DNA of 64,000 nt from Pseudoxanthomonas sp. GM95 (GTDB lineage: Bacteria; Pseudomonadota; Gammaproteobacteria; Xanthomonadales; Xanthomonadaceae). The stretch is from contig NZ_FOAX01000005.1 in NCBI RefSeq assembly GCF_900109775.1, positions 1 through 64,000 of the forward strand, written 5' to 3'. The position numbers and the translations under genes were made by a program. The notes beneath the pieces are model-generated. The model ran no database searches. It saw only the letters and a list, made by a program, of their open reading frames with translations, and had not been told where the DNA came from. Of this stretch, positions 9,593-21,414 are shown piece by piece. The first letter of the stretch is position 1. Each line of letters starts with the position of its first letter.

Positions 9593-10678
9593 ATGAAAGA
9601 AATTATCGGAATTCCCGCCCTCGCCCATGCTTCCAACAGCCTGGTGCTGCCCGAACAGCTGGCGCAGCAAGCGGCCGATGCGGTGCGCGAGCTGCTCGCC
9701 GAGGCCGCTGCCGAAAACACCACCCGCAGCTACGCCACGGCGCTGCGGTACTGGGCTGGCTGGCACGCGGCGCGCTACGGCATCGAGCTGAGCCTGCCGG
9801 TGCCCGAGGCCGCGGTACTGCAGTTTGTGGTCGACCACGTCGTGCGGCGCTCGACCGAAAACGATCTGACCTGGGAATTGCCGCCGGTCGTGGATCAGGC
9901 GCTGGTCGCCTCGGGCCTCAAGGCCAAGCCTGGCCCCTGGACGCTGACCACGGTCCGTCACCGGGTCGCCGTCCTTTCAACGGCACACCGGCTCAAGCAG
10001 CTGCCCAATCCCTGCGAACAGCCCGCAGTGCGTCTGGTCCTGAGCAGCGCCCGCCGCGCTGCAGTTAAGCGCGGCGAGCGCCCGCGCAAAAAGACCGCGA
10101 TCACGCTGACCGAGCTCGAGGCCATGCTGGCCACCTGCGACGACAGCCTGGAAGGCATCCGCGACCGTGCCCTCCTCTGCTTTGCCTTCTCCAGCGGCGG
10201 CCGCCGGCGCAGTGAGGTCGCAGCCGCGGACATGCGCGATCTACGCCGGATTGGCGACAAGGGTTACATCTATCGCTTGGAGCACAGCAAGACACAGCAG
10301 GAAGGCGTCACGGCGACCTCGACCCCGGACAAGCCGGTGCTGGAGCGCGCTGCAGCGGCGCTCGAGGAATGGATCGCCGAGGCGGGCATCCAGGAGGGGG
10401 CGATCTTCCGTCGGCTATGGAAGCGGCGTGTCGGCCCTGCCCTGTCTCCTGCGGCTGTGGCCGAGATCGTGCAACGTCGGGCGAAGTTGGCGGGGATCGA
10501 GGGGGACTTTGGTGGGCACAGCCTGCGGTCGGGCTTTGTGACCGAAGCCAGCCGCCAAGGGGTCCCGCTGGCGGCGATCATGCAGATGACCGAGCACCGA
10601 GCGGTGTCGAGTGTTGTAGGGTACTTCCAGACTGGAGGCGCGTCCGCGAATCCCGCCGCTCGCTTGCTTGAAGATTAA
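9593..10678 (+). CDS. Tyrosine recombinase/phage-type integrase
   Basis: This 361-residue site-specific recombinase has an N-terminal SAM-like core-binding domain (NTTRSYATALRYWAGWHAARYG) and a C-terminal catalytic domain. The motif residues are visible: Arg in GGRRRSE, a Lys in HSKTQQ, HSLR, the second His in TEHRAVSS, and the nucleophile Tyr in VVGYFQ. It appears intact. It lies end-to-end with the phosphorothioation operon, so it probably mobilised or marks the edge of that island. No tRNA or att repeat was found nearby. Confidence 0.88.
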   Translation: MKEIIGIPALAHASNSLVLPEQLAQQAADAVRELLAEAAAENTTRSYATALRYWAGWHAARYGIELSLPVPEAAVLQFVVDHVVRRSTENDLTWELPPVVDQALVASGLKAKPGPWTLTTVRHRVAVLSTAHRLKQLPNPCEQPAVRLVLSSARRAAVKRGERPRKKTAITLTELEAMLATCDDSLEGIRDRALLCFAFSSGGRRRSEVAAADMRDLRRIGDKGYIYRLEHSKTQQEGVTATSTPDKPVLERAAAALEEWIAEAGIQEGAIFRRLWKRRVGPALSPAAVAEIVQRRAKLAGIEGDFGGHSLRSGFVTEASRQGVPLAAIMQMTEHRAVSSVVGYFQTGGASANPAARLLED

Positions 10679-10864: not shown

Positions 10865-12730
10865 TCACGGGGCACTCCAGAGTAGGATGATGAACTTGTC
10901 ATCGTTCCTGGCATCCTGCAGCAGGCGTGCGTCCAACGCCTGCCGCGCCTCTTCGACTGTCGGCGACGCGGCACAATATACGCAGACGGCCCGGCCGCCG
11001 ATGTCAGCCTTGCCCCCCGGTTTGATGGCCAGGCCGGTCAGCAGACGCACTACATTCGCGTCGAGGGCCTCACCATGAGCAGTGAGCAGATCGTCTACCG
11101 CCGACAAATCGAGGTGAAGCTCGTGTTGCTTGGCCTTGGCCCGTTGGATGGCATGGCCGACTAGCGGTAGGCCTTCCACCGCCGCGTCGGCCATGGCGCC
11201 CCGCAGGTCCGCGAGTCGGACTGCGACGCCGCTGAGCCGCCAGACCGACAGCGTCACGGGCAGTCCCACCCGAGCTGCGCGTGCCCCGTACTGGGCCGCG
11301 ATGTTCTGCGCCACATCCGGGCGCAGTTCGCCGACCACCTGCCAACCTGTCCCATAGGTGGTGCCGAAGGACAGAATCGATTCGGCGCGAACGTCGCGTA
11401 GATTCCACGTCAATAAATGGTTCTCCGCGTGCGCCATCATCGCACTCATCGGCACGTAATAATTGCCATCCAGTGTGATCGCCGGCAGCGTGCGTTGACC
11501 GCGTACGAACAGCACGGTGGAGCTATTAAACTCGGACTCCTTCGTCTGCGCGAGATCGCAAGCCTGGGTCAGGTTGAGCCAATCGGTGCCATCTGGATCA
11601 CGCAGCACCATCCCGAACCGGAGGTGCTTGCGTATCCAGTGTGCCTGCACCACGGGCGCCTCACCCGCCGGATACGCTGGCAGGCCCACTACGCTCGCGC
11701 GCCATTCCATGCTGTGCATCAGGCTATGGATCGCCGCGCGGGAGTCTCCGACCTCCGCAACGGGAGACAGTAAGTTGGCCGCGCGATGTTCGAGCAAGCT
11801 GGTATCCAGCTGCTGCAACGCGGGGCGCATCCCACCATCGGCTTCAAGGTCGGACAATAAGCGTCGGCTAATCGCATCTTCAACGTAGCGAACGTAATCG
11901 TCATTGTCTTTCGACGCCAGCTCGTGTAGTAGGTCCATCGCCTGCAAGTCCAGCTCCCACAACTTGCTAGCGGTGGCACTGGCGGCCGCGGTCAGGGCAG
12001 ACCCTGCATCGGTGATGAAGCGTTCCATCTTCGTGACGTCCACGCGGTCGCTCGCGAGCTGCCACAACGCGGCACGCCATGCCACCAAATGGGTATCAGT
12101 GGCCGGCTTCTCCATGATCCGCATCCGCGAGCTCGATACCTTTAGCCCCGGGCGGATGCTCTTGAAGTCGGCACGCAGTTGCTGCTCGTGCGAGGACATC
12201 AGGATGACTTGCAGGGGGCGTTCCTGCGTATGGTGAGTATCGAGCACTTCGCGAATGAAGGGCAGTGTCGCGTTTATCGTGGCGTCGACCAGAAAATAGT
12301 CGACGACGATCAGGTCGTAGAAAGCGTTATGCGGGATCGCGGGCTCCGGGTATATGTCGATGTTGTCAGCGGTGACCCCCAATTCCTTGAGCAGTTCGAT
12401 GACCCGCCGCACCGGAGCTGCGTGCTCATGGCGTGCAGTTAGCACCGCCTCGGCCGCGACGCGCAGTCGCGCCGGCGCGCGCTCGCGAATGGCGGGTTCG
12501 GCCAAGGGCTCAGCCAAGTCGTCCATGGCCTCGGGATTGCGGCCTTCTTGGGTCAACAGGTCGACATACGCCTCGCGATCGGGATCGTTAGGATCATTCA
12601 GCAACGCGGCCACCCGCGCGTCGGCGATCTGCAGGTCCGCATGCGAGATCCGGGCGGAGAGATCATCGTCGATCACCGCAACCCTCAGGATCTGCGCCTC
12701 GTTCAACTTGGCGGCCACGTCCATGCTCAT
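10865..12730 (-). CDS. Receiver-domain protein with large uncharacterised C-terminus, end of the phosphorothioation operon
   Basis: The 621-residue protein begins with a divergent response-receiver fold: acidic triad IDDD at 20-23, phospho-acceptor Asp144 in LIVVDYFL, Ser179/180 in ILMSS and Lys208 in IMEKP. About 75 extra residues are inserted between the first strand and first helix. Residues from about 220 to 621 resemble no domain I know, and contain no DNA-binding or nuclease motif that I can see. Its ATG overlaps the stop of the GHKL-protein gene (ATGA), so they are made together. It is probably the partner of that ATPase; signalling or effector role is inferred. Confidence 0.7.
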   Translation of the reverse strand: MSMDVAAKLNEAQILRVAVIDDDLSARISHADLQIADARVAALLNDPNDPDREAYVDLLTQEGRNPEAMDDLAEPLAEPAIRERAPARLRVAAEAVLTARHEHAAPVRRVIELLKELGVTADNIDIYPEPAIPHNAFYDLIVVDYFLVDATINATLPFIREVLDTHHTQERPLQVILMSSHEQQLRADFKSIRPGLKVSSSRMRIMEKPATDTHLVAWRAALWQLASDRVDVTKMERFITDAGSALTAAASATASKLWELDLQAMDLLHELASKDNDDYVRYVEDAISRRLLSDLEADGGMRPALQQLDTSLLEHRAANLLSPVAEVGDSRAAIHSLMHSMEWRASVVGLPAYPAGEAPVVQAHWIRKHLRFGMVLRDPDGTDWLNLTQACDLAQTKESEFNSSTVLFVRGQRTLPAITLDGNYYVPMSAMMAHAENHLLTWNLRDVRAESILSFGTTYGTGWQVVGELRPDVAQNIAAQYGARAARVGLPVTLSVWRLSGVAVRLADLRGAMADAAVEGLPLVGHAIQRAKAKQHELHLDLSAVDDLLTAHGEALDANVVRLLTGLAIKPGGKADIGGRAVCVYCAASPTVEEARQALDARLLQDARNDDKFIILLWSAP

Positions 12731-15072
12731 TCCTTGGGAAATTGCAGTACGAACGCACGGTAACGGCCGTCGTCGTCAGCGCCGTCGAGCGCCAGTTGAG
12801 CTTGGTGATACGTGGCGACCTCGGCAGCAAGGAACAGCCCCAGTCCCTGCCCTCGGGGGCGCATCGTGAAGCCCGCCGTGAACACCCGGTCCTTGTCCGC
12901 GGAGGCGATTCCAGGGCCGTTGTCCCACACCGACAGGGTCCTGGACTCGGGATCCAGTTCCAGATGGATCTCCCGTCCTGTTGCGCCCGCCTTTAACCCA
13001 CGCTGCAACCAATACACGGAGTTGGTGACCAGATTCTCCACGGCCAGGCTTACGAAGCCGCGAACCATGTTGACCATGAACGGGCTGACCCCTTCCTGGC
13101 CTGATGTGGTCAGCGTGGCGTGGATCTCGTGGCGCTCAAAGCGCGCCTCATAGCCGTGCAGGATTGTCTGCAGCAGCGCTGCGAGGTCGAATGGTTCCTT
13201 GCGATGGCGTCCCGAGGGCGTCAATGGATCGAGCTGCCGCAAGCGTGTGTTGATGGCCTTAATTTCGTTATCGAGCTTGACCAGGAGTGCCCGCGTCGCC
13301 GGCGACTCGTCCTTGGCCAGCTTCTGCAGCAGCTGCCGCGTGTGCCCTGTGGTCCGCGTCAGCTCATGCAAGACACCCGACATCACCGTGCCAACGCCTG
13401 CCAGCTCCAAGATGTCTTCACGACGCTCTCCCACCTGTTTGGCGGCGTCCTCAAAGCGCCTGGTTTCGGTCTTGATAAAATGCAGGTGCTTGGTGATTGA
13501 CTCGACGGTTTTCTTAGTGTCGTCCGGTACCCGGGCCCGGATCTCGGCCAACCCCTGCTCGGCCTGCTTGATCCGATTGCGAATAGTCTCTGGCGCCGAT
13601 TTGGTCACTTCGTCGAGCTGGCTGCGCTTCTCTTCCTCGCCTTCGTGGGTGATGTGGCGCCGGAGCTCGTCGATGGCATAGTCAAATAGGATGCTGCGCA
13701 CGAGCCGAGTCTGCCGGGACTCGATCAGGCCCTCCCGGTTGGACCGGTCGATCAGGTTGGGGTTCTCGATGCGACTGATCTCGACGGCGCCAACCGTCTG
13801 GATGCGATTGACGGCGAACCCGCCGCGCTTAAGCGCACTGCTGTCGATGGCCAGCCAATCTTCGCCCGAGGACTGCCCAGAGAAGCCCACCCGGAATCCA
13901 TCGCGGTAGATGGCCACACCGCCGCTCCACAGATCCAGCTCGGCTTTAGCTTCCTTGGTGGTGCCGTGCAAGGTAGTTTGCGCCCGCAGCGTGTCACGGT
14001 TGAACCAGCGAATGCGCGCCTTGAAGGGTCCGATCAAACGCAACTCGTCAGAGGTGGCCTCCAACTTGTGCGTTACCTCATCACGTGTGCGTAAGACCTT
14101 TTGCGGATCAATCCCGCGCTGGTGATCCACGAGTGTAGTCATGACCACCGTGTCGGTAGGTCCCTTCACCTCTGGAGTGAACACCAGCTCCAGGTCGGCC
14201 TGGGCGTGCTCGCTCAGAACCTTCTTCATACCTTCGATCGGGATGCGGTCTCCATCGTTGTAGTACACATCGATGGGAAATACGGCCTGCTTGGTCAACT
14301 CGGGAAATGGGTTTTGCAGACGGCGCAGAAACCCATCGACGAAGCGCTTTTCGACTTGGATGAGGTCCCAAGTTGCTCGCAGTGCGGCGATTTCGATCAC
14401 CGTCCCGGTGGCATGGTCGTGACCGGGCTCGACCGGGACGATATCGATGGGGATCTGCTCCAGCATCTCGTCTGTCTTATCAAAAACGCGCCAGTCAAAG
14501 TTGATCTGATGCGCGCTCTTTCGATCCACCCAGGAGGTGACAGCGGCCCGATCTCCCAGCCGCATCATGGCCAGTCGACCGATACCCTTGTTGCCAAGCA
14601 ACGTGCGTTGCAGTTCTTCGCTGGTCTGCGTGTTGTAGCGTGACGGCGTGCCGATCTGCAGAAACACGGTTTCTAGGTCGTGTTCATTCATGCCGGTGCC
14701 ACGATCGCTGACGGCAATCGTGTTGATCAGCTCGAGTACACCCACGACCTCCGGCCAACTCGTGGCGACCTGCAGTGCATGGATCAGGGCAACGGCATGC
14801 TTCGGTGCACCCTCAGGACCGGCAGAGAGGCGCTTGATGACATCGTCAGTGAAAGCACCGAGCCCATCCATGCCAGACGGATGCGACCGCGCTTGATCGA
14901 GAAGCATGTCGAGCTCGGCCTGTGGCAAGCCGATCCGGAAGTCGATGCGAACCCGCTTGGATTCTGCGTCGAATGCGTTCTTGATGAGCTCGTTCAGGGC
15001 GACCTCATCGGAGGTGATGAGTTCTGCACCCAAATGAATCAGCGTCCTGGCCGCTACCGAGAAGTTCGCCAC
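12727..15072 (-). CDS. Double-GHKL ATPase: MORC/Hsp90-like N-terminal domain plus histidine-kinase-like C-terminal domain
   Basis: The 781-residue protein carries two ATP-binding GHKL modules. The first has N-box ELIKNAFDA (28-36), VSDRGTGM and NKGIGRLAMMRLG, resembling MORC/paraMORC-type ATPases known from restriction neighbourhoods. A predicted coiled coil (about residues 500-570) leads to a kinase-like half with an H-box-like LHEL, N-box ENLVTNSVYW, DNGPGI and RGQGLGLFLA. It starts 78 bases after sspA and is coupled to the receiver protein by ATGA. A phosphorelay or ATP-driven conformational sensor linked to DNA phosphorothioation is inferred. Confidence 0.75.
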   Translation of the reverse strand: MANFSVAARTLIHLGAELITSDEVALNELIKNAFDAESKRVRIDFRIGLPQAELDMLLDQARSHPSGMDGLGAFTDDVIKRLSAGPEGAPKHAVALIHALQVATSWPEVVGVLELINTIAVSDRGTGMNEHDLETVFLQIGTPSRYNTQTSEELQRTLLGNKGIGRLAMMRLGDRAAVTSWVDRKSAHQINFDWRVFDKTDEMLEQIPIDIVPVEPGHDHATGTVIEIAALRATWDLIQVEKRFVDGFLRRLQNPFPELTKQAVFPIDVYYNDGDRIPIEGMKKVLSEHAQADLELVFTPEVKGPTDTVVMTTLVDHQRGIDPQKVLRTRDEVTHKLEATSDELRLIGPFKARIRWFNRDTLRAQTTLHGTTKEAKAELDLWSGGVAIYRDGFRVGFSGQSSGEDWLAIDSSALKRGGFAVNRIQTVGAVEISRIENPNLIDRSNREGLIESRQTRLVRSILFDYAIDELRRHITHEGEEEKRSQLDEVTKSAPETIRNRIKQAEQGLAEIRARVPDDTKKTVESITKHLHFIKTETRRFEDAAKQVGERREDILELAGVGTVMSGVLHELTRTTGHTRQLLQKLAKDESPATRALLVKLDNEIKAINTRLRQLDPLTPSGRHRKEPFDLAALLQTILHGYEARFERHEIHATLTTSGQEGVSPFMVNMVRGFVSLAVENLVTNSVYWLQRGLKAGATGREIHLELDPESRTLSVWDNGPGIASADKDRVFTAGFTMRPRGQGLGLFLAAEVATYHQAQLALDGADDDGRYRAFVLQFPKE

Positions 15073-15150
15073 GTTAGTCCTTTCCCGAGCTGGGGTCCTA
15101 CGTCTTGCATGGAAATTGCTGACTGCTGGAATCGCGAGGATCTGTCTCCG

Positions 15151-16332
15151 CTAGCCACTGTGTTCTTGGATGCGGCTGATGGCGACCGCGGTTCGTTCCG
15201 CGGCCACCTCGATGTCGTCCTCACGCGTGCTACGTCCCAGGGTGAATCGAATTACCTCCCCGGCCGTGCGCTCGTCCAAACTCACCGCGCGCAGCACATG
15301 GGAGGAGCGAAGTTCTCCCGCCGCGCACGCCGCGCCGGTCGAAGCCGACAGTGCCGGCGCTAATCGCGCGAGGAGATCCTCGGCATCCACGCCTGGGAAA
15401 CGCAGGCTCAAGTGTCCAGGCAGCCGCTGGGTGGGATGACCGATCAGTTGGACGGCAACCCCGTGTCGGGAGAGCGCAGCCAGAAATCCGGTGGCCAGCT
15501 GCTGCTGGCGCGCGGCATCCTGCACGATGCGCTGTCGGGCCAACTTGGCCGCGGTGCCAAAGCCGACTGCCAGGAAGGCCGGAACGGTACCCGACCGCAG
15601 GCCGCCCTCCTGGCCGCCACCGTGTAGTTGCGGTTCGAGTTGCCCCTGCACGGCGGGTGCCACGTATAGGGCGCCTATGCCCCCGGGGCCATAGAGCTTG
15701 TGGCTCGACACACACATCAGATCGCAATCCATCGCCTCCACATCCAATGGTATGCGCCCAGCCGATTGGGCAGCATCGACATGCAGCAGATGGCCATAGG
15801 CATGAGCGCGTTCGGCCAATTCGGGCAACGGTTGGAGCGTGCCAATCTCATTGTTACCGTGCGCGATCGCGACCACCCCCGGGGTGATGTGCGGCGCCCC
15901 CCACGCCTCCGTCAGTCTTGACATGTCGACCAACCCCGTGCCAAGCACCGCCAGTGGCGTGACTACGACCCCCACCCCAGACAGATAGCGTGCGGGTTCT
16001 CGCAAAGACTTGTGCTCCGTGTCAGCCAGCCACAGGTGCGTGCGCGCCCCGGTAGCTGAGAGCAGGCCCTTCAGCGCCAGGTTGTTGGCTTCGGTTGCGC
16101 CGGAGGTGAACACGACGCTTTCCGGCTGGCCACCAATCAGGGCCGCCACGGCCTCACGGGCGTCGTCAATAGCACGGGCAGCCCGGCGGCCGTGGAAGTG
16201 CTCGGAATGCGGGTTGGCATGGGCGTGGCGCAGCCAAGGCAGCATGGCCTCGACGACCTCGTCCGCCGGCGGCGTCGACGCCGCGAAGTCTAGGTACAAG
16301 GGTTCCTTCGCCGGTGCGGTCATACTGTGCAT
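15151..16332 (-). CDS. sspA: Cysteine desulfurase, SspA/DndA-like
   Basis: This PLP enzyme of the NifS/IscS class takes sulfur from cysteine for DNA phosphorothioation. Counting from ATG 16332 it has 393 residues, with the PLP lysine Lys212 in SSHKLYGPGG and the persulfide-forming Cys336 in GAACAAGE. The N-terminal YLDFAASTPP is typical. Two starts are possible (16332 or 16323); both sit just after the sspD stop, so coupling is likely. The frame stays open upstream within sspD, but that part is clearly not family-like. Encoding inside the operon, next to an SspD-like protein, argues for a dedicated sulfur donor. Confidence 0.87.
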   Translation of the reverse strand: MHSMTAPAKEPLYLDFAASTPPADEVVEAMLPWLRHAHANPHSEHFHGRRAARAIDDAREAVAALIGGQPESVVFTSGATEANNLALKGLLSATGARTHLWLADTEHKSLREPARYLSGVGVVVTPLAVLGTGLVDMSRLTEAWGAPHITPGVVAIAHGNNEIGTLQPLPELAERAHAYGHLLHVDAAQSAGRIPLDVEAMDCDLMCVSSHKLYGPGGIGALYVAPAVQGQLEPQLHGGGQEGGLRSGTVPAFLAVGFGTAAKLARQRIVQDAARQQQLATGFLAALSRHGVAVQLIGHPTQRLPGHLSLRFPGVDAEDLLARLAPALSASTGAACAAGELRSSHVLRAVSLDERTAGEVIRFTLGRSTREDDIEVAAERTAVAISRIQEHSG

Positions 16333-16333
16333 G

Positions 16334-17170
16334 CTACTTGTGACACACCAGGCAGGCCTTGCCGCCGGCAAAGATGTCGTCCATCGCGTTTGACTCAGCC
16401 TCGTCTTGCGGGCGCAGCGGATTGCGGCGAACTTTGGCCCGCGCGCGGGCCCGTCGCACCTCGTGCTCGCGCTCGATTGCGCGCATGCGCTCGGGTTGCT
16501 CCAGCTCATCCAACGATTCGCGATCGCTCCAGGTAAACGGTGAGCCGTGCTCGAGCGCGCTCTTCTCGTAGCGCTTGGCCTCCTCAAATCGGTCCGGGTG
16601 CTGCTGCTTGAGCCGGACCCACTCGATCTTCTGCTGGAAGAAGCAGAACGTGCAGCCACTGCGCGAGCGCCAGTCGTAGTACTTGGGCAACCCCACTCCG
16701 GCGCCGTTGAGGAGCTCCAGCACCCCGGCGTGATCAACGCCTGCTTCCCGGAAAGGCAAGTGAACGGTCAGGTTCTCGTGGCCGGAGTCGTAGCCCTCGC
16801 GGTGGGATTCGTCTGCGCGGATCGCCACGTAGCTGTGGACTTGGTCTCCGGCCTCCAGCCAGGGCCTGACCCAGTTTCGGAAGGGAACCAGCTTGAGCTG
16901 CCGGGTGCACCAGCGGGTCTTGACTGAGGGCAGGAAGTGTCCGTACTCGCGCAACCAGAAGTCGAAGTCCCGCTGCGGATTCAGGCGCAGGATCGACTTG
17001 CCCAGAAAGCCCTCCAGGCTTCCCAGGAACTCGTAGACCTCGGGCAATTCCTTGCCCGTGTCGGTGAAGAAGTACTGCAAATCCAACTCGGGGTGATGCA
17101 AGCGCATATAGACGGCCAGTGCAGCGCTGTCTTTGCCTCCAGAGATTCCCAGTACATGGCGATCAGCCAC
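16334..17170 (-). CDS. sspD: ATP pyrophosphatase/PAPS reductase-like sulfur transferase, SspD/DndC-like
   Basis: The 278-residue protein has the PP-loop SGGKDS at residues 10-15 and the PAPS-reductase-like fold. Cysteines in TRWCTRQ, SGCTFCFF and the C-terminal ACLVCHK could hold an iron-sulfur cluster as in DndC. In phosphorothioation systems this protein adenylates the DNA backbone or carries the sulfur delivered by SspA. The start is GTG at 17170, overlapping the sspC stop by 8 bases. Size and place between the ATPase and the cysteine desulfurase fit SspD. Confidence 0.85.
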   Translation of the reverse strand: MADRHVLGISGGKDSAALAVYMRLHHPELDLQYFFTDTGKELPEVYEFLGSLEGFLGKSILRLNPQRDFDFWLREYGHFLPSVKTRWCTRQLKLVPFRNWVRPWLEAGDQVHSYVAIRADESHREGYDSGHENLTVHLPFREAGVDHAGVLELLNGAGVGLPKYYDWRSRSGCTFCFFQQKIEWVRLKQQHPDRFEEAKRYEKSALEHGSPFTWSDRESLDELEQPERMRAIEREHEVRRARARAKVRRNPLRPQDEAESNAMDDIFAGGKACLVCHK

Positions 17171-20100
17171 GGCTCGCCTCCTTTGCTTGCAGTTCCTTCA
17201 AGACCAGTGCCCCGGCCTCGACCAGGGCGGCCAGCAGCAGATCCGGCTTCACAGCCTCGGTGCGCAACCGTTCGATCAGATCGTCGCGCATGCGGGTAAT
17301 GAGCAGGCTGTCGGCGTCGGCGATATCGATCGTCGCAGACACCGTGTCCTGCCCGCCGAACACCACGGCGAGAGCACGCCGGCCGGCTGGCCGTCCCTGC
17401 ACCGACGCCAACGCTTCAATACGACGGAACTCGAAGGCCCACTGCGATAACTGCACCGCGGCATGATCGAGGTCGTGATCGCTGAACTCGCGGGCCGGCT
17501 TGCTGACAGCGAGAGCTGCTAGGCTCTCTATGCCCTCCTCCGTCCCGCTGTAAGTCATCAGTCTGCCGACGAACGCCTCCAGCTTGAGATCGCCACTAAT
17601 GCCCCGCACAGCGTTCGCCCGGACCTGCAGCTTTGTCAGCTGCCCCTCGTGGTCGATGCGGTCCAGCATCTTGGCTTCCAGAGCCCGTAGCGCCTGCGGG
17701 TAGGCGTTGGTCAACTCTTCGATGACCCGGCCCACTTCGGCCACGACGGCCTTGCCGTCGCTCCCTGTCCCCAATTTTTCTGGGAGATCAACGAACAGGG
17801 TTTTGACCGGGTCGGAGGCCTGCACCAGCAGGCCACGGGTCTCACGTGCGAGCGTGCTGACCCTAGCCGTGCGCTGCGTCCACTGGGGCAACGAGAGCGT
17901 CCACGCCACCAGCGCACGTGCCGAGTCTAGGGGATCGGCCAGCACGGGGCGTTGAAGGGTCTCTTCCAACTGCGATGCCAGCAGGGTGAGCATTTGTTTG
18001 GCCGGGGCGTCCATGCACACCCACTTCCAGCCGATGCGCGCGGGATCCTGCAGCCATTCGTCAACGTCCGCATCGGTGAGGTCGGGGCTGAACATGCCGT
18101 CGACATAGACGGCGATCTCGCCGCGATGCACTAACAGAAACGCCAGCGCCAGGATCGGCAATACACCATTCTTTACGCCGTAGGGAGCTCGCCGCGCGGT
18201 TTCATACCACTCGGCCAAAGTGATGGCGCCGCCAGCGTCTGCCAGCTGCTGTCGCCAGATTTTCCACAAGTCGGTGAGCGAACCGGCGCCTTCTGAATCG
18301 GGTGTCTTCTCAGGCGAGGTGAAGACGCCCCTCCCTTTCACCGTTTTGTGTAAGCCCAATGCGGCCAGCACCGTGTAGTAGAGACCCGCGTCGGCGGGGT
18401 AGCCGCTGTAATCGAGTTCGGGGCGATCGCCGTGGGATAACATTCGGTGCATCAGCATTCGCTGAGCTTTCGCCGCGTTGGACGACAACACCTCGCGGTT
18501 GACCAATTCACTGAAGATATGGGGTGCAGGTTTGAACACCGCATCGCACACGCGGCTAGCCGTTGGCGAAAGGCCTTCTTCAGCGGTCGGCTGGTAGACT
18601 TTGTTCGCGCTGAACCAGACTGCGGTCGCAAAAGCGTCTCGCAATGCGGCCTCCAGATCACCGCGCAGCTGCTGCAGCCGCGCATTGATCTCGCGCCGGG
18701 CCACGCTATCGCTCTCCAACGAGGGGGTGGACTCCGCCACATGTTCCAAGGCCGCGAGCTCTCCGGCGTACTCCGCTAGCCGTTGATGCCCCTTAGGCAC
18801 TCCGAACAGGCTCAACGGATCGGACGTCTGTTTGGCCAGATCAAATGCTGCCTGTTCCAACCGCTCAATCGACGTTTCGCGATCGGGGATCAGCAAAACA
18901 AAACGACCGGTTTGTGAGGTGGTGTTTGGCGAAGTGTGGCTGCGGGCCCCATGAGGCGTCGTCACGATGCGCGTGAACCAGCGCAAGGTGCCCGTCGTGG
19001 AGTAGTGCTTGCGTGCGGTCAAGGGCGGCAGCACACCCAATCGTTTGAGCTGCTCGTCGATGCTGTGGCTACCTTCGCGCTTGGCCGTCTCGACTGCAGC
19101 ATCAATGTCAAAGTCGCTGCCCGCATAAACAGCCCAGGCGGCATTGTGCTTGCGGTAGATGATGATGCTGGTTGAAGCCAGATCGGCCAATGCTGCTTGC
19201 ACTACTTTGGGGGTAAAACTTCCAGCCGAACGTTCCAGCACGTCGTTGCTGGCGGCTAACCCAGAGCCATTGCGGAACAACTCGATCAGGGCGATCGTCT
19301 TGGCCAGGGAGACATGCGGCTCCCTGAAACGCGCCTCCACACGTTCAATGGCCTCGGCACTGATAGCCCAGCGGTGACCGTCCGCGGACGCGAGGATGGC
19401 TGGCTCGAAATTGGTGCGCAGGTAGTCCCAGAAGCGGGCGGGCTGGTAGTAATCGATCGACGCGCGATCGTGACCTGAAAGAAATTCACGGAATCCCAGC
19501 GGTTCGGCCGAGCTCAGGAAGCCGAACACACTGCGCTCGTTCTGACCGAAGCGGCGACGGGAGCATGGCCCTAACAATGCTGCGGTGACAGGATGCAAGG
19601 GCCAGCACCGATCCAAGGCATCTGCGAGGGTCGCCGGCGAGGCAGGTCGACGGCTGTGAATGGCCTTGGCGATGACCTGCGCTACAGCCTTGCTCTGAGC
19701 GTGCGGCTCCTGGGTATGAATGGCACCGCCGATCAGAGCGATAACCTCGTCAGTCCCTGCAACCACGGGGACGTCGACAAAGCGTCCCTGCACCTTCGCC
19801 CATTCGGACTGGACGCTGCGCCCAGAGCGTGTGGCGTATCGTTCGAAGGCTTGGTGCAGAATGCCAATGACCACAAGCTTGCCGTTGCTCCGACTGGCAG
19901 CTTCCGCGAGCTCCTGAAAAACATAGATGTCCTCGCCGGCCGCTGCCGCTGACTCAAGAAGCTTGCCCATCTCGTCCAGGACCAGCAGAACGCCACCCTG
20001 CTCGCCCGACTCGGCCCGCCGCAGTAGCTCGGCCACCACGTCGCGCCGGCCATTGCGCATCCGCTTCGGGCCACGCTGCGGCGCATGTTTATCGATTGCC

Positions 20101-20495
20101 TGACTGATGGCCTCTTCGATGGTTTGCCTGCGGCCCACCACCGGCACGACAAGCCATGGCTTCTTGCTACCAAAGGCTCGCCAGATGTCGTCGTCGTTCT
20201 CAATGCGCAGCACCTGCTTCGCACGCTTGCGAATCGCGGGGGTTCCACCTACCAACTGTGCCAAAGCCAGCGCGAGGGTCGATTTTCCGCCTCCGTAAGG
20301 CCCGGTCCAGGTGAATGCCCGCTGTTGCGACTCGTTGAGGTGTTGAGCCACGACCGACAGCGCGTTGCGGGTGCTTGTCTGGCTGATATAGCCATCAAGC
20401 GCGTCATGACGCGCTATATCAGCTTCCAACTGCACGGACCGTTGGAAGCGGGATGTCACCTGGATACGAAGATCGGTATTACTTGCCATAGGCAT
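17163..20495 (-). CDS. sspC: Large P-loop ATPase, SspC-like
   Basis: The 1110-residue protein has a Walker A motif GPYGGGKST (65-73) and a Walker B LLVLDEMGK (Asp174, Glu175) in an N-terminal AAA-type domain. The long helical remainder has no recognised motif. SspC-type ATPases work with SspB and SspD in single-strand phosphorothioation. Two ATGs (20495, 20489) overlap the sspB gene by 17 or 11 bases. The assignment to SspC rests on size, P-loop type and gene order; DUF499/BREX-like ATPases are related alternatives. Confidence 0.75.
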   Translation of the reverse strand: MPMASNTDLRIQVTSRFQRSVQLEADIARHDALDGYISQTSTRNALSVVAQHLNESQQRAFTWTGPYGGGKSTLALALAQLVGGTPAIRKRAKQVLRIENDDDIWRAFGSKKPWLVVPVVGRRQTIEEAISQAIDKHAPQRGPKRMRNGRRDVVAELLRRAESGEQGGVLLVLDEMGKLLESAAAAGEDIYVFQELAEAASRSNGKLVVIGILHQAFERYATRSGRSVQSEWAKVQGRFVDVPVVAGTDEVIALIGGAIHTQEPHAQSKAVAQVIAKAIHSRRPASPATLADALDRCWPLHPVTAALLGPCSRRRFGQNERSVFGFLSSAEPLGFREFLSGHDRASIDYYQPARFWDYLRTNFEPAILASADGHRWAISAEAIERVEARFREPHVSLAKTIALIELFRNGSGLAASNDVLERSAGSFTPKVVQAALADLASTSIIIYRKHNAAWAVYAGSDFDIDAAVETAKREGSHSIDEQLKRLGVLPPLTARKHYSTTGTLRWFTRIVTTPHGARSHTSPNTTSQTGRFVLLIPDRETSIERLEQAAFDLAKQTSDPLSLFGVPKGHQRLAEYAGELAALEHVAESTPSLESDSVARREINARLQQLRGDLEAALRDAFATAVWFSANKVYQPTAEEGLSPTASRVCDAVFKPAPHIFSELVNREVLSSNAAKAQRMLMHRMLSHGDRPELDYSGYPADAGLYYTVLAALGLHKTVKGRGVFTSPEKTPDSEGAGSLTDLWKIWRQQLADAGGAITLAEWYETARRAPYGVKNGVLPILALAFLLVHRGEIAVYVDGMFSPDLTDADVDEWLQDPARIGWKWVCMDAPAKQMLTLLASQLEETLQRPVLADPLDSARALVAWTLSLPQWTQRTARVSTLARETRGLLVQASDPVKTLFVDLPEKLGTGSDGKAVVAEVGRVIEELTNAYPQALRALEAKMLDRIDHEGQLTKLQVRANAVRGISGDLKLEAFVGRLMTYSGTEEGIESLAALAVSKPAREFSDHDLDHAAVQLSQWAFEFRRIEALASVQGRPAGRRALAVVFGGQDTVSATIDIADADSLLITRMRDDLIERLRTEAVKPDLLLAALVEAGALVLKELQAKEASRG

Positions 20496-21414
20496 GCCTC
20501 AGCAGCCGTTGCTTAAGCGCATCGGGAGCCTCCTTGAACATTCGGCTGACCTGACGGACACCCGCCGAGTCGCTCCAGCGCAATTGGCCTTCTGAAATGT
20601 TCTCGAGGTTGACCAATCGGTCACCGACCGAGTTCTCATCGAGTTTGAAAACACGTCCTGGCGCCCCAAATTCGTGCGCAATGGCCTCAAATGACAACGT
20701 CGCTTGGCCCGACCCGTCCACACGCTGTTTGGATTCCCAGAACTCCAGCAACGCAAGCGCAAACAGACCATCCGGCAGGGAGGCCTGTGGCCCGCGGCGG
20801 AAGCGAAAGGTTCCTGTGGGGCCCTCCGATAGCAATCCTAGATCAGCGAGCAAAGGCTCGGCCGCGTCGTCGGCTTCCCGCCCGTCGCGTCGTGCCACGT
20901 AGCAACGCACGCAGACGTCGACATCCCGCTTGAGCGTTACCGGGGAAACCCGATGCCCGCCCTGTGCGGCTGCCTGCGCGAGCGATGCCGTCACCGCATC
21001 CGTATCGAAGGTCTGCTCGGTGACGCGATTAAACAACCACCACCATGTCGTGGATCGTCTTCCACGGCCGGCGAGCAGCCAATGTACCCACCACGCACTC
21101 GCGGGTTTCTCAAGGTAGGGGTCGAGGCCACGGCTACCGAAGAGCGTCCGCCCGACGCTGCCGACCCCGATTTTTCCGCCGGTCTGCTCCTCGAGCACGT
21201 CGCAGGCCAGAGCCCAATGCCGAATCGCAGCGACCATGTTCTTTCCGACCCCGAACAGGCGAATGCCGTTCTCGGGGGCAAAAGCCAACTTGGCGTTGGT
21301 TGAGTAATACGAATGCGTCGCGGCCTCGTAGGCCTTGCGGAGCCACAATTGGCGTAAGGGAAAGGTCTCGTGACCGGAGAATTGGACGCTATCGGGAATC
21401 GGGCCGTTCAACAT
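20479..21414 (-). CDS. sspB: DUF4007 protein, SspB-like phosphorothioation nickase
   Basis: The 311-residue protein opens with the DUF4007 signature FSGHETFPLRQLWLRKAY, followed by FGVGKNMVAAIRHWALA. DUF4007 proteins are the SspB component, a nickase that opens one DNA strand for sulfur insertion. It is the first gene of a tightly overlapping operon (sspB-C-D-A, then the GHKL and receiver genes). Two palindromes occupy the DNA just before its ATG. The assignment relies on the signature and on the neighbours together. Confidence 0.8.
   Translation of the reverse strand: MLNGPIPDSVQFSGHETFPLRQLWLRKAYEAATHSYYSTNAKLAFAPENGIRLFGVGKNMVAAIRHWALACDVLEEQTGGKIGVGSVGRTLFGSRGLDPYLEKPASAWWVHWLLAGRGRRSTTWWWLFNRVTEQTFDTDAVTASLAQAAAQGGHRVSPVTLKRDVDVCVRCYVARRDGREADDAAEPLLADLGLLSEGPTGTFRFRRGPQASLPDGLFALALLEFWESKQRVDGSGQATLSFEAIAHEFGAPGRVFKLDENSVGDRLVNLENISEGQLRWSDSAGVRQVSRMFKEAPDALKQRLLRHAYGK

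Follow-up and report, generated by a model that had tools for sequence, protein, structure and literature searches.

A GHKL kinase and receiver gene pair linked to Ssp phosphorothioation genes in Pseudoxanthomonas and in distant bacteria

The bacterium Pseudoxanthomonas sp. GM95 carries six open frames on the minus strand, in the order sspB-sspC-sspD-sspA-G-R, at positions 10865-21414 of the stretch of DNA analyzed here (the window, 64,000 nucleotides of contig NZ_FOAX01000005.1). The first four are the genes of an Ssp phosphorothioation system, and the last two, here called G and R, code for a GHKL ATPase joined to a histidine-kinase core and for a receiver protein. The main finding is that the G-R pair is faithful to the sulfur-mark genes and is tied to sspBCD in distant bacteria. 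Since this linkage is conserved, chance is a very unlikely explanation of the operon. G-R is an added module, and at some loci it is the only candidate effector seen.

Linkage of G-R to the ssp genes

The linkage was followed in genomes, plasmids, and viral contigs. When 84,980 genomes were scanned using a three-sequence alignment of G and two peptide patterns, 23 loci came up; three of them (L028-L030) match the ATPase end of G only, and the other 20 hold a full-length G. In 19 of these 20, R is the next gene and both sspC and sspD lie within the fetched stretch; sspB is in the stretch for 18 of the 19 and lies past its edge in L014. The records L003/L006 (G141) and L016 are apparently one and were counted once. 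The 20th locus (L025, from a Phycisphaerales bin) also has R next to G. It was considered as an exception to the linkage because its stretch showed bacteriophage exclusion (BREX)-like genes and no SspD, but sspB, sspC, and sspD were found just past the edge. The same locus (L025/L122) also holds a second DUF4007-like protein, an SspC/BrxC-type ATPase, and an HNH protein. A PglZ-type gene was recognized there by eye, with one unnamed scanned open reading frame (ORF) matching PglZ at 3.4e-7, and a 737-aa protein of the locus may be BrxL.

In viral contigs, sspB, sspC, and sspD lie beside G in both of two cases, and the phage collection gave two short records with distant GHKL matches (22-25% identity). 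For plasmids, a tblastn search with G returned 17 records, 12 of which were analyzed (L102, which lacks annotation, and H9, H11, H18, and H21 were left out). R adjoins G and ssp genes are present in 11 of the 12, with sspC and sspD both visible in 10; the stretch of plasmid locus L059 ends after sspB. The Candidatus Chlorohelix plasmid (L061, Chloroflexota) has the order sspA-B-C-G-R-D-F-G-H in one operon, placing G-R between sspC and sspD.

As a control not picked for Ssp, 38 genomes of the window's own genus were searched with G. Matches below 1e-80 were seen only in G000 and G758, the latter with the order sspA-B-C-D-G-R, and the weaker matches present in most genomes of the genus are ordinary kinases. 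Distant GHKL kinases with small unknown partners were also seen in this genus (L117:8552-13280 and L118:8510-13083), beside an AlkZ-like glycosylase or a C5 (cytosine) methylase and with no ssp gene in the stretch.

A preliminary description of this DNA, made from the sequence without database searches, had proposed looking for a conserved six-gene unit in other genomes, and such a unit is conserved in the window, in Dokdonella (L008), and in L116. The Dokdonella locus also has a DndB-domain protein (PF14072, 3e-29) just after R on the other strand (L008:14248-15516), and its sspC match falls in two overlapping frames of 766 and 399 aa (L008:4531-7943), which is a break or an assembly error. 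Over 26 loci, the distances of G and of R correlate with r=0.96 and those of G or R with SspC or SspD at r 0.57-0.69, values that are not corrected for species relatedness.

The operon in Pseudoxanthomonas

The six genes form one packed operon (Table 1). By coordinates, sspB and sspC overlap by 17 nucleotides, sspC and sspD by 8, and G and R by 4, and there are gaps of 1 nucleotide between sspD and sspA and of 78 between sspA and G. The preliminary description had spoken of a fused module, which is right as far as a single operon goes, although no genes are fused. Its four phosphorothioation genes are confirmed by PADLOC, which names SspB, SspC, and SspD homologues in one cassette together with SspA and gives no Ssp name to G or R. 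The score for SspA comes from a 5'-truncated piece of 373 aa (the part below 16272), and the start of the gene, ATG 16332 or 16323, was taken directly from the sequence.

Table 1. Genes of the operon and a neighboring gene, with positions in the window
Feature	Position	Strand	Product	Basis
sspB	20479..21414	minus	311 aa, DUF4007	PADLOC SspB 5.1e-105; Pfam DUF4007 3.5e-79
sspC	17163..20495	minus	1110 aa, P-loop ATPase	PADLOC SspC E 0, 1284.7 bits
sspD	16334..17170	minus	278 aa, PAPS-reductase/PP-loop	PADLOC SspD 1.6e-134; PAPS_reduct 6.1e-7
sspA	15151..16332	minus	cysteine desulfurase, 393 aa from ATG 16332 or 390 aa from 16323	PADLOC SspA 1.7e-111
G	12727..15072	minus	781 aa; GHKL (MORC/MutL-like), coiled coil, histidine-kinase DHp (H569), HATPase_c	
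R	10865..12730	minus	621 aa; receiver ~15-210 (helical insert ~25-125), helices 212-342, C-terminal region with MazF-like fold matches	
Tyrosine recombinase	9593..10678	plus	361 aa, convergent to the operon	Phage_integrase 2e-18

The tyrosine recombinase is probably a mobility gene outside the system. Nothing clear was seen in the way of attachment repeats or promoters around the operon, and a comparison of insertion sites was uninformative, as a search of the genus (37 further genomes) with the right flank gave just two matches, each of ~55 bases.

G, a GHKL ATPase with a histidine-kinase core

The preliminary description had called G a double-GHKL ATPase, and Pfam bears this out with HATPase_c_3 in the N-terminal part (5.2e-18) and HATPase_c in the C-terminal part (3.6e-16). 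In a search of the Protein Data Bank (PDB) with a profile of 20 G sequences, the kinases ThkA (1.9e-16, profile positions 540-774) and ZraS (4.9e-13) were matched, with the invariant H569 of G aligned on their phospho-accepting histidine, while the N-terminal part matched Hsp90-type proteins at 4.9e-7 and weaker. Kinase structures also rank first in the fold search with the AlphaFold model of G (mean predicted local distance difference test score, pLDDT, 76.3), the top match being a structure from the HK853-RR468 complex (E 1.5e-10). The tested residues of the N-terminal ATP site, of the H-box (H-E), and of the kinase ATP site are the same in all 20 sequences. A block at ~389-394, with five of its six positions kept in 20/20, may be the S5-like part of MORC-type ATPases. 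The boxes and motifs are named here as H-box, N, G1, G2, and S5. By these matches, G unites a GHKL domain of the MORC/MutL/Hsp90 type with a complete histidine-kinase core.

R, a receiver with a strand-rich C-terminal region

The R protein of the window matches no model of Pfam, NCBIfam, or PADLOC. Despite this, the receiver call of the preliminary description holds up well in an alignment of 32 sequences that includes the window, where D22, D144, K208, and S/T179 are found in 32/32 and D21 in 31/32. These residues are kept although identity to the window's R drops to 16%, so that R has a receiver whose phosphotransfer residues are conserved. Other conserved positions are G373, C391, and R470 (32/32 each), D392 (31/32), R487 (30/32), and T388 (29/32).

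The model of R is good (mean pLDDT 85.9). In it, the receiver carries a helical insertion and is followed by a middle part made of helices and by a C-terminal region rich in strands. Foldseek gave no match at E < 0.001. The first 10 PDB fold matches include nine MazF-type toxins from few proteins (4me7, 4mzm, 1ne8, and others), with E 0.1-0.3 and probabilities of 0.90-0.99; the remaining one, at rank 3 (E 0.12), is the RNA-binding response regulator EutV, and receiver structures stand lower, at E 0.5-0.7. PemK-like and endoribonuclease models were among the weak matches in a viral library (E 0.09-0.17). Judging from the order of strands and helices, the MazF-like part would lie at ~366-491. 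The catalytic residues of MazF are Arg and Thr. A relation to MazF by sequence was rejected, since hhalign of the C-terminal region against PemK gave a probability of 0.1 on a scale of 100 (with six informative rows of seven, the L069 row being a single residue). A MazF-type fold of this region is thus a lead that is suggestive only, resting on E ~0.1 with no sequence similarity to MazF/PemK toxins.

The R profile had a single match among PDB sequences (E 2.8). R and its relatives together match five Pfam families at E up to 1, none of them DNA-binding, and no helix-turn-helix protein is named among the best 50 of 330 fold matches of R. MazF-type RNases apart, there is no nuclease match for R or its relatives in Pfam, in PDB sequences, or in the displayed fold matches.

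Relation to a family beside restriction-modification systems

A two-component-like pair, HEF_HK (PF19191) and Response_reg_2 (PF19192), has been described beside restriction-modification (R-M) systems (Bellieny-Rabelo et al. 2021, PMC8011034). This pair and G-R have in common the HATPase_c_3, DHp, and HATPase_c domains, an adjacent receiver protein of ~600 aa with the same receiver residues, and a modification gene next door. The window's G scores 13.9 bits against HEF_HK, below the Pfam cut-off of 24.1; at E up to 0.1, the model is matched by 12 of the 20 G alignment members, the window's G among them, with 4.1e-6 as the best value. For Response_reg_2, a threshold of E 1 lets through just two of 20 R alignment members, the better one at 7.6e-4, and the window's R is not among them. 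In the wider sense, G is a HEF_HK-type protein, with HATPase_c_3, a DHp with H-E, and HATPase_c, homologous throughout.

Three members linked to C5 methylases were fetched, and their gene order is C5 methylase, GHKL kinase, receiver. The G profile aligns with these relatives over near full length (hhalign probability 100, E 7.6e-47), while R aligns with theirs only in a C-terminal CDL...LR...R region (probability 77, E 2e-5). The HEF_HK family adjoins C5 methylases and Vsr, whereas the Ssp-linked G proteins are a clade separate from the three fetched; when 40 G proteins are placed in a tree, the Ssp-linked rows, 34 in number, make one group (95/88) apart from the C5-methylase pairs. The terms phosphorothio, DUF4007, Dnd, and Ssp are all absent from the 2021 paper, whose Discussion favors signaling that controls R-M systems. 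That G-R is a separate branch of the HEF_HK/Response_reg_2 family, dedicated to phosphorothioation systems, is well supported.

A histidine-kinase two-component system near the Ssp genes of Acinetobacter baumannii was noted in 2025 (PMC12421847). According to that paper, 61.91% of A. baumannii genomes have Ssp, with SspE missing in nearly all cases, and the kinase may point to a new variant of Ssp or to a role in epigenetics. G-R lies beside sspBCD in one A. baumannii record (CP040048.1) and may be the pair near the Ssp genes of A. baumannii global clone 2. In this record (L005), G-R and sspBCD are found beside an annotated endonuclease, transposase, and excisionase, with a Tn7-like look. DefensePredictor (PMC13092281) lists HATPase and REC among the domains of predicted, unvalidated systems, an entry that may or may not be G-R. 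Beyond the 2021 and 2025 papers and this possible entry, no description of an Ssp-G-R unit was found in the open-licence literature. The preliminary description had suggested a new arm of Ssp, and what is new is the separate Ssp-linked branch, while the family itself and a kinase near Ssp were already in print.

Other known systems share some features with G-R. The MORC/paraMORC GHKL ATPases of R-M systems (Iyer et al. 2008, PMC2292703) resemble G in having an N-terminal GHKL ATPase near DNA-modification genes. In the sections of that paper at hand, their C-terminal extensions are nuclease, TIR, or unknown, where G instead has a kinase core, and the words 'receiver' and 'PP-loop' have 0 occurrences. 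Surveys of Type 4 BREX and of Dnd (PMC12839542 and PMC10853773) treat SspB/C/D homologues and phosphorothioation loci. The extracts available of these two have no occurrence of HATPase or receiver, GHKL occurs 0 times in that of the Dnd survey, and 'response regulator' and 'histidine kinase' in that of the BREX survey refer to PorX and Schlafen-type proteins.

Relation to SspFGH and SspE

The SspABCD-SspFGH and SspABCD-SspE systems have the same modification module as the window. The preliminary description had left room for G-R being part of SspFGH, and this is ruled out by the description of that system and by searches of the window and genome. In the part of the SspFGH paper available (PMC8092258), SspF has a Walker A motif, nothing is named for SspG, and SspH has an FtsK-like end; neither SspF nor SspH is described there as GHKL or receiver. 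Queries for SspF, SspG, and SspH gave 0 matches in the whole window and in the next stretch (L007), and the SspF query (from Polaromonas) gave 0 in the organism's own genome, the search for SspG and SspH being of the window and L007 rather than genome-wide. SspF is likewise absent from 14/14 other genomes that have G-R and no FGH in the stretch, with two of two positive controls found.

The earlier statement that no SspE gene is present agrees with the searches made here. G and R of the window match no SspE model, and GmrSD_N, the DUF262 part of SspE, gave 0 in the own genome and matches in 8 of 14 control genomes (DUF1524 was not searched). Of the 46 neighbor ORFs of at least 400 aa, all were scanned except two from A. 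baumannii with a ribonucleotide reductase annotation, and the 44 scanned show no SspE match among the 25 of 26 PADLOC families displayed. A GmrSD_N protein is found in 5 of the 14 genomes with G-R and without FGH and in one of the two FGH-bearing controls. SspE elsewhere in such genomes was rejected as an explanation, as each of the four GmrSD_N proteins scanned has HEC-06 as its top model, while the SspE models score lower and match mostly in the N-terminal part; the scan did not include the proteins of G808 and G819.

FGH-like genes do stand beside G-R at some loci, and SspFGH accompanies G-R in 11 of the 34 Ssp-linked rows. The effector is therefore not always missing and G-R is no plain substitute for FGH; the earlier proposal that G-R stands in place of a restriction gene is not supported in that form. 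On the G tree, the FGH label needs at least 5 changes. Two rhizobial plasmids (L062 and L066) have a very similar G, with FGH beside R in one and none in the stretch of the other, a contrast that represents recent gain or loss of FGH. In one of the 11, the Rhizorhabdus plasmid pUPO218 (L064/L100:8126-10948), sspF is in two pieces around an annotated IS5 transposase.

Proposed working of G-R and the alternatives

G-R has a somewhat better than even chance of being a soluble two-component-like switch of the His-Asp kind that is stably partnered with SspABCD and drives the output region of R as an effector. In this scheme, SspABCD would set phosphorothioates on host DNA. The N-terminal MORC/MutL-type ATPase of G would most likely serve as an ATP-driven DNA clamp or complex sensor, reading either the DNA itself or the SspB/C machinery on it and telling marked (self) from unmarked (foreign). 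It could then gate the C-terminal kinase core, which would autophosphorylate on H569 and, as the conserved residues suggest, pass the phosphate to D144 of R. Phosphorylation may free or dimerize the C-terminal output region, which would act as the effector, alone in this genome or beside SspFGH elsewhere. The phosphorelay or ATPase switch of the preliminary description would fit the conserved His and Asp. As a parallel, the pair beside cytosine methylases also consists of a modification gene, a GHKL kinase, and a receiver. A narrower version is doubtful: a MORC-like clamp might sense missing marks or the state of SspB/C and signal through kinase and receiver to a MazF-fold output that halts the infected cell. 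If true, Ssp immunity would have in it a third effector arm, and cytosine-methylation systems would be served by a parallel pair.

Several observations weigh against an effector partnered with SspABCD. Besides the company of SspFGH, there is no convincing nuclease or DNA-binding match for the C-terminal region of R, the outer branches of the G tree are long and unsure, and the distance correlations ignore species relatedness. One Salipiger plasmid (L067) carries a distant G in a stretch that contains neither R nor ssp genes; in it, the G relative, a 227-aa unknown protein, a PtuB-like HNH nuclease, and an N6 methylase stand in a row (L067:8875-14063). The reverse test used an unselected phylum sample of 398 genomes, 11 of them with DUF4007, and stretches of ~19.5 kb (12.5 kb for L057). 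Neither G nor R was present in the fetched stretch of any of the 10 other DUF4007 genomes, so Ssp does not need G-R; FGH-like genes were present in 3 of the 10, one of which has SspH alone, at the edge. The R profile found the own genome and one partial match of 51 positions in the 398 genomes, and among 369 genomes of the class, tblastn with R picked out two, the own genome and G141. Most Ssp systems are without G-R, which is a rare module.

The pair could instead be a regulator, either a cytoplasmic two-component system that adjusts how strongly SspBCD (and SspFGH) are expressed or how active they are, or an epigenetic reader through which phosphorothioate marks alter host gene expression. 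This is somewhat unlikely. The conserved kinase and receiver residues would suit it, as would EutV at rank 3 of the fold matches, the signaling control favored in PMC8011034, and the new variant or epigenetic role raised in PMC12421847. G-R occurs both with FGH (11/34 clade rows) and without it, and a regulatory role stays alive because FGH often accompanies the pair. Two points favor the effector over the regulator, namely the absence of any DNA-binding family match for R and the many loci at which no other known effector is seen; the lack of a helix-turn-helix protein in the best 50 fold matches also counts against regulation. A DNA-cutting restriction arm, with G as an R-M-type ATPase and R as an unrecognized nuclease, is improbable. 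The N-terminal half of G does resemble restriction enzymes of the BbrUII/HgiDII family (2.2e-19, with 69.4 bits, far below the model's cut-off of 550) and PADLOC type II restriction enzymes (6.6e-7), and 2 of the 3 fetched cytosine-methylase loci have no separate endonuclease among their listed ORFs (by eye, not scanned). However, no nuclease family was matched by R or its relatives in the searches given above, MazF-type RNases apart, and the conserved residues of R are the receiver set plus G373, T388, C391, D392, R470, and R487.

Help with modification, the clamp ATPase of G positioning SspB/C/D on DNA and R being a conformational adaptor, is quite improbable. It would suit the Chloroflexota gene order, in which G-R separates sspC from sspD, and the several loci where the pair comes immediately behind sspD or sspA, as well as the DNA looping proposed for MORC-like ATPases in PMC2292703. 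Yet SspBCD with IscS works without G-R according to PMC8092258, the 10 other DUF4007 genomes lack G-R in their stretches, and co-divergence with SspC and SspD is just moderate. That G-R is a mere passenger of the same defense islands, with no tie to Ssp, is extremely improbable. The loci do look mobile, with integrases, transposition genes, and plasmids around several of them, but linkage holds in 20/20 of the returned genome loci, examples come from three phyla, G-R can lie inside the ssp operon, and the Ssp-linked G proteins make up a single clade (95/88).

Significance for Ssp systems

Many Ssp systems have a gap where an effector would be expected. In the work of Wang et al. (PMC8092258), 2,211 of 2,678 sspBCD sets have neither sspFGH nor sspE, and other restriction counterparts are suggested. 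For part of that gap, G-R offers a concrete candidate, though it is rare, with none in the 10 other DUF4007 genomes of the unselected sample. If the pair works as proposed here, classical His-Asp signaling would be joined to self/non-self discrimination on DNA, and the methylase-linked family described in 2021 would become testable by the same route.

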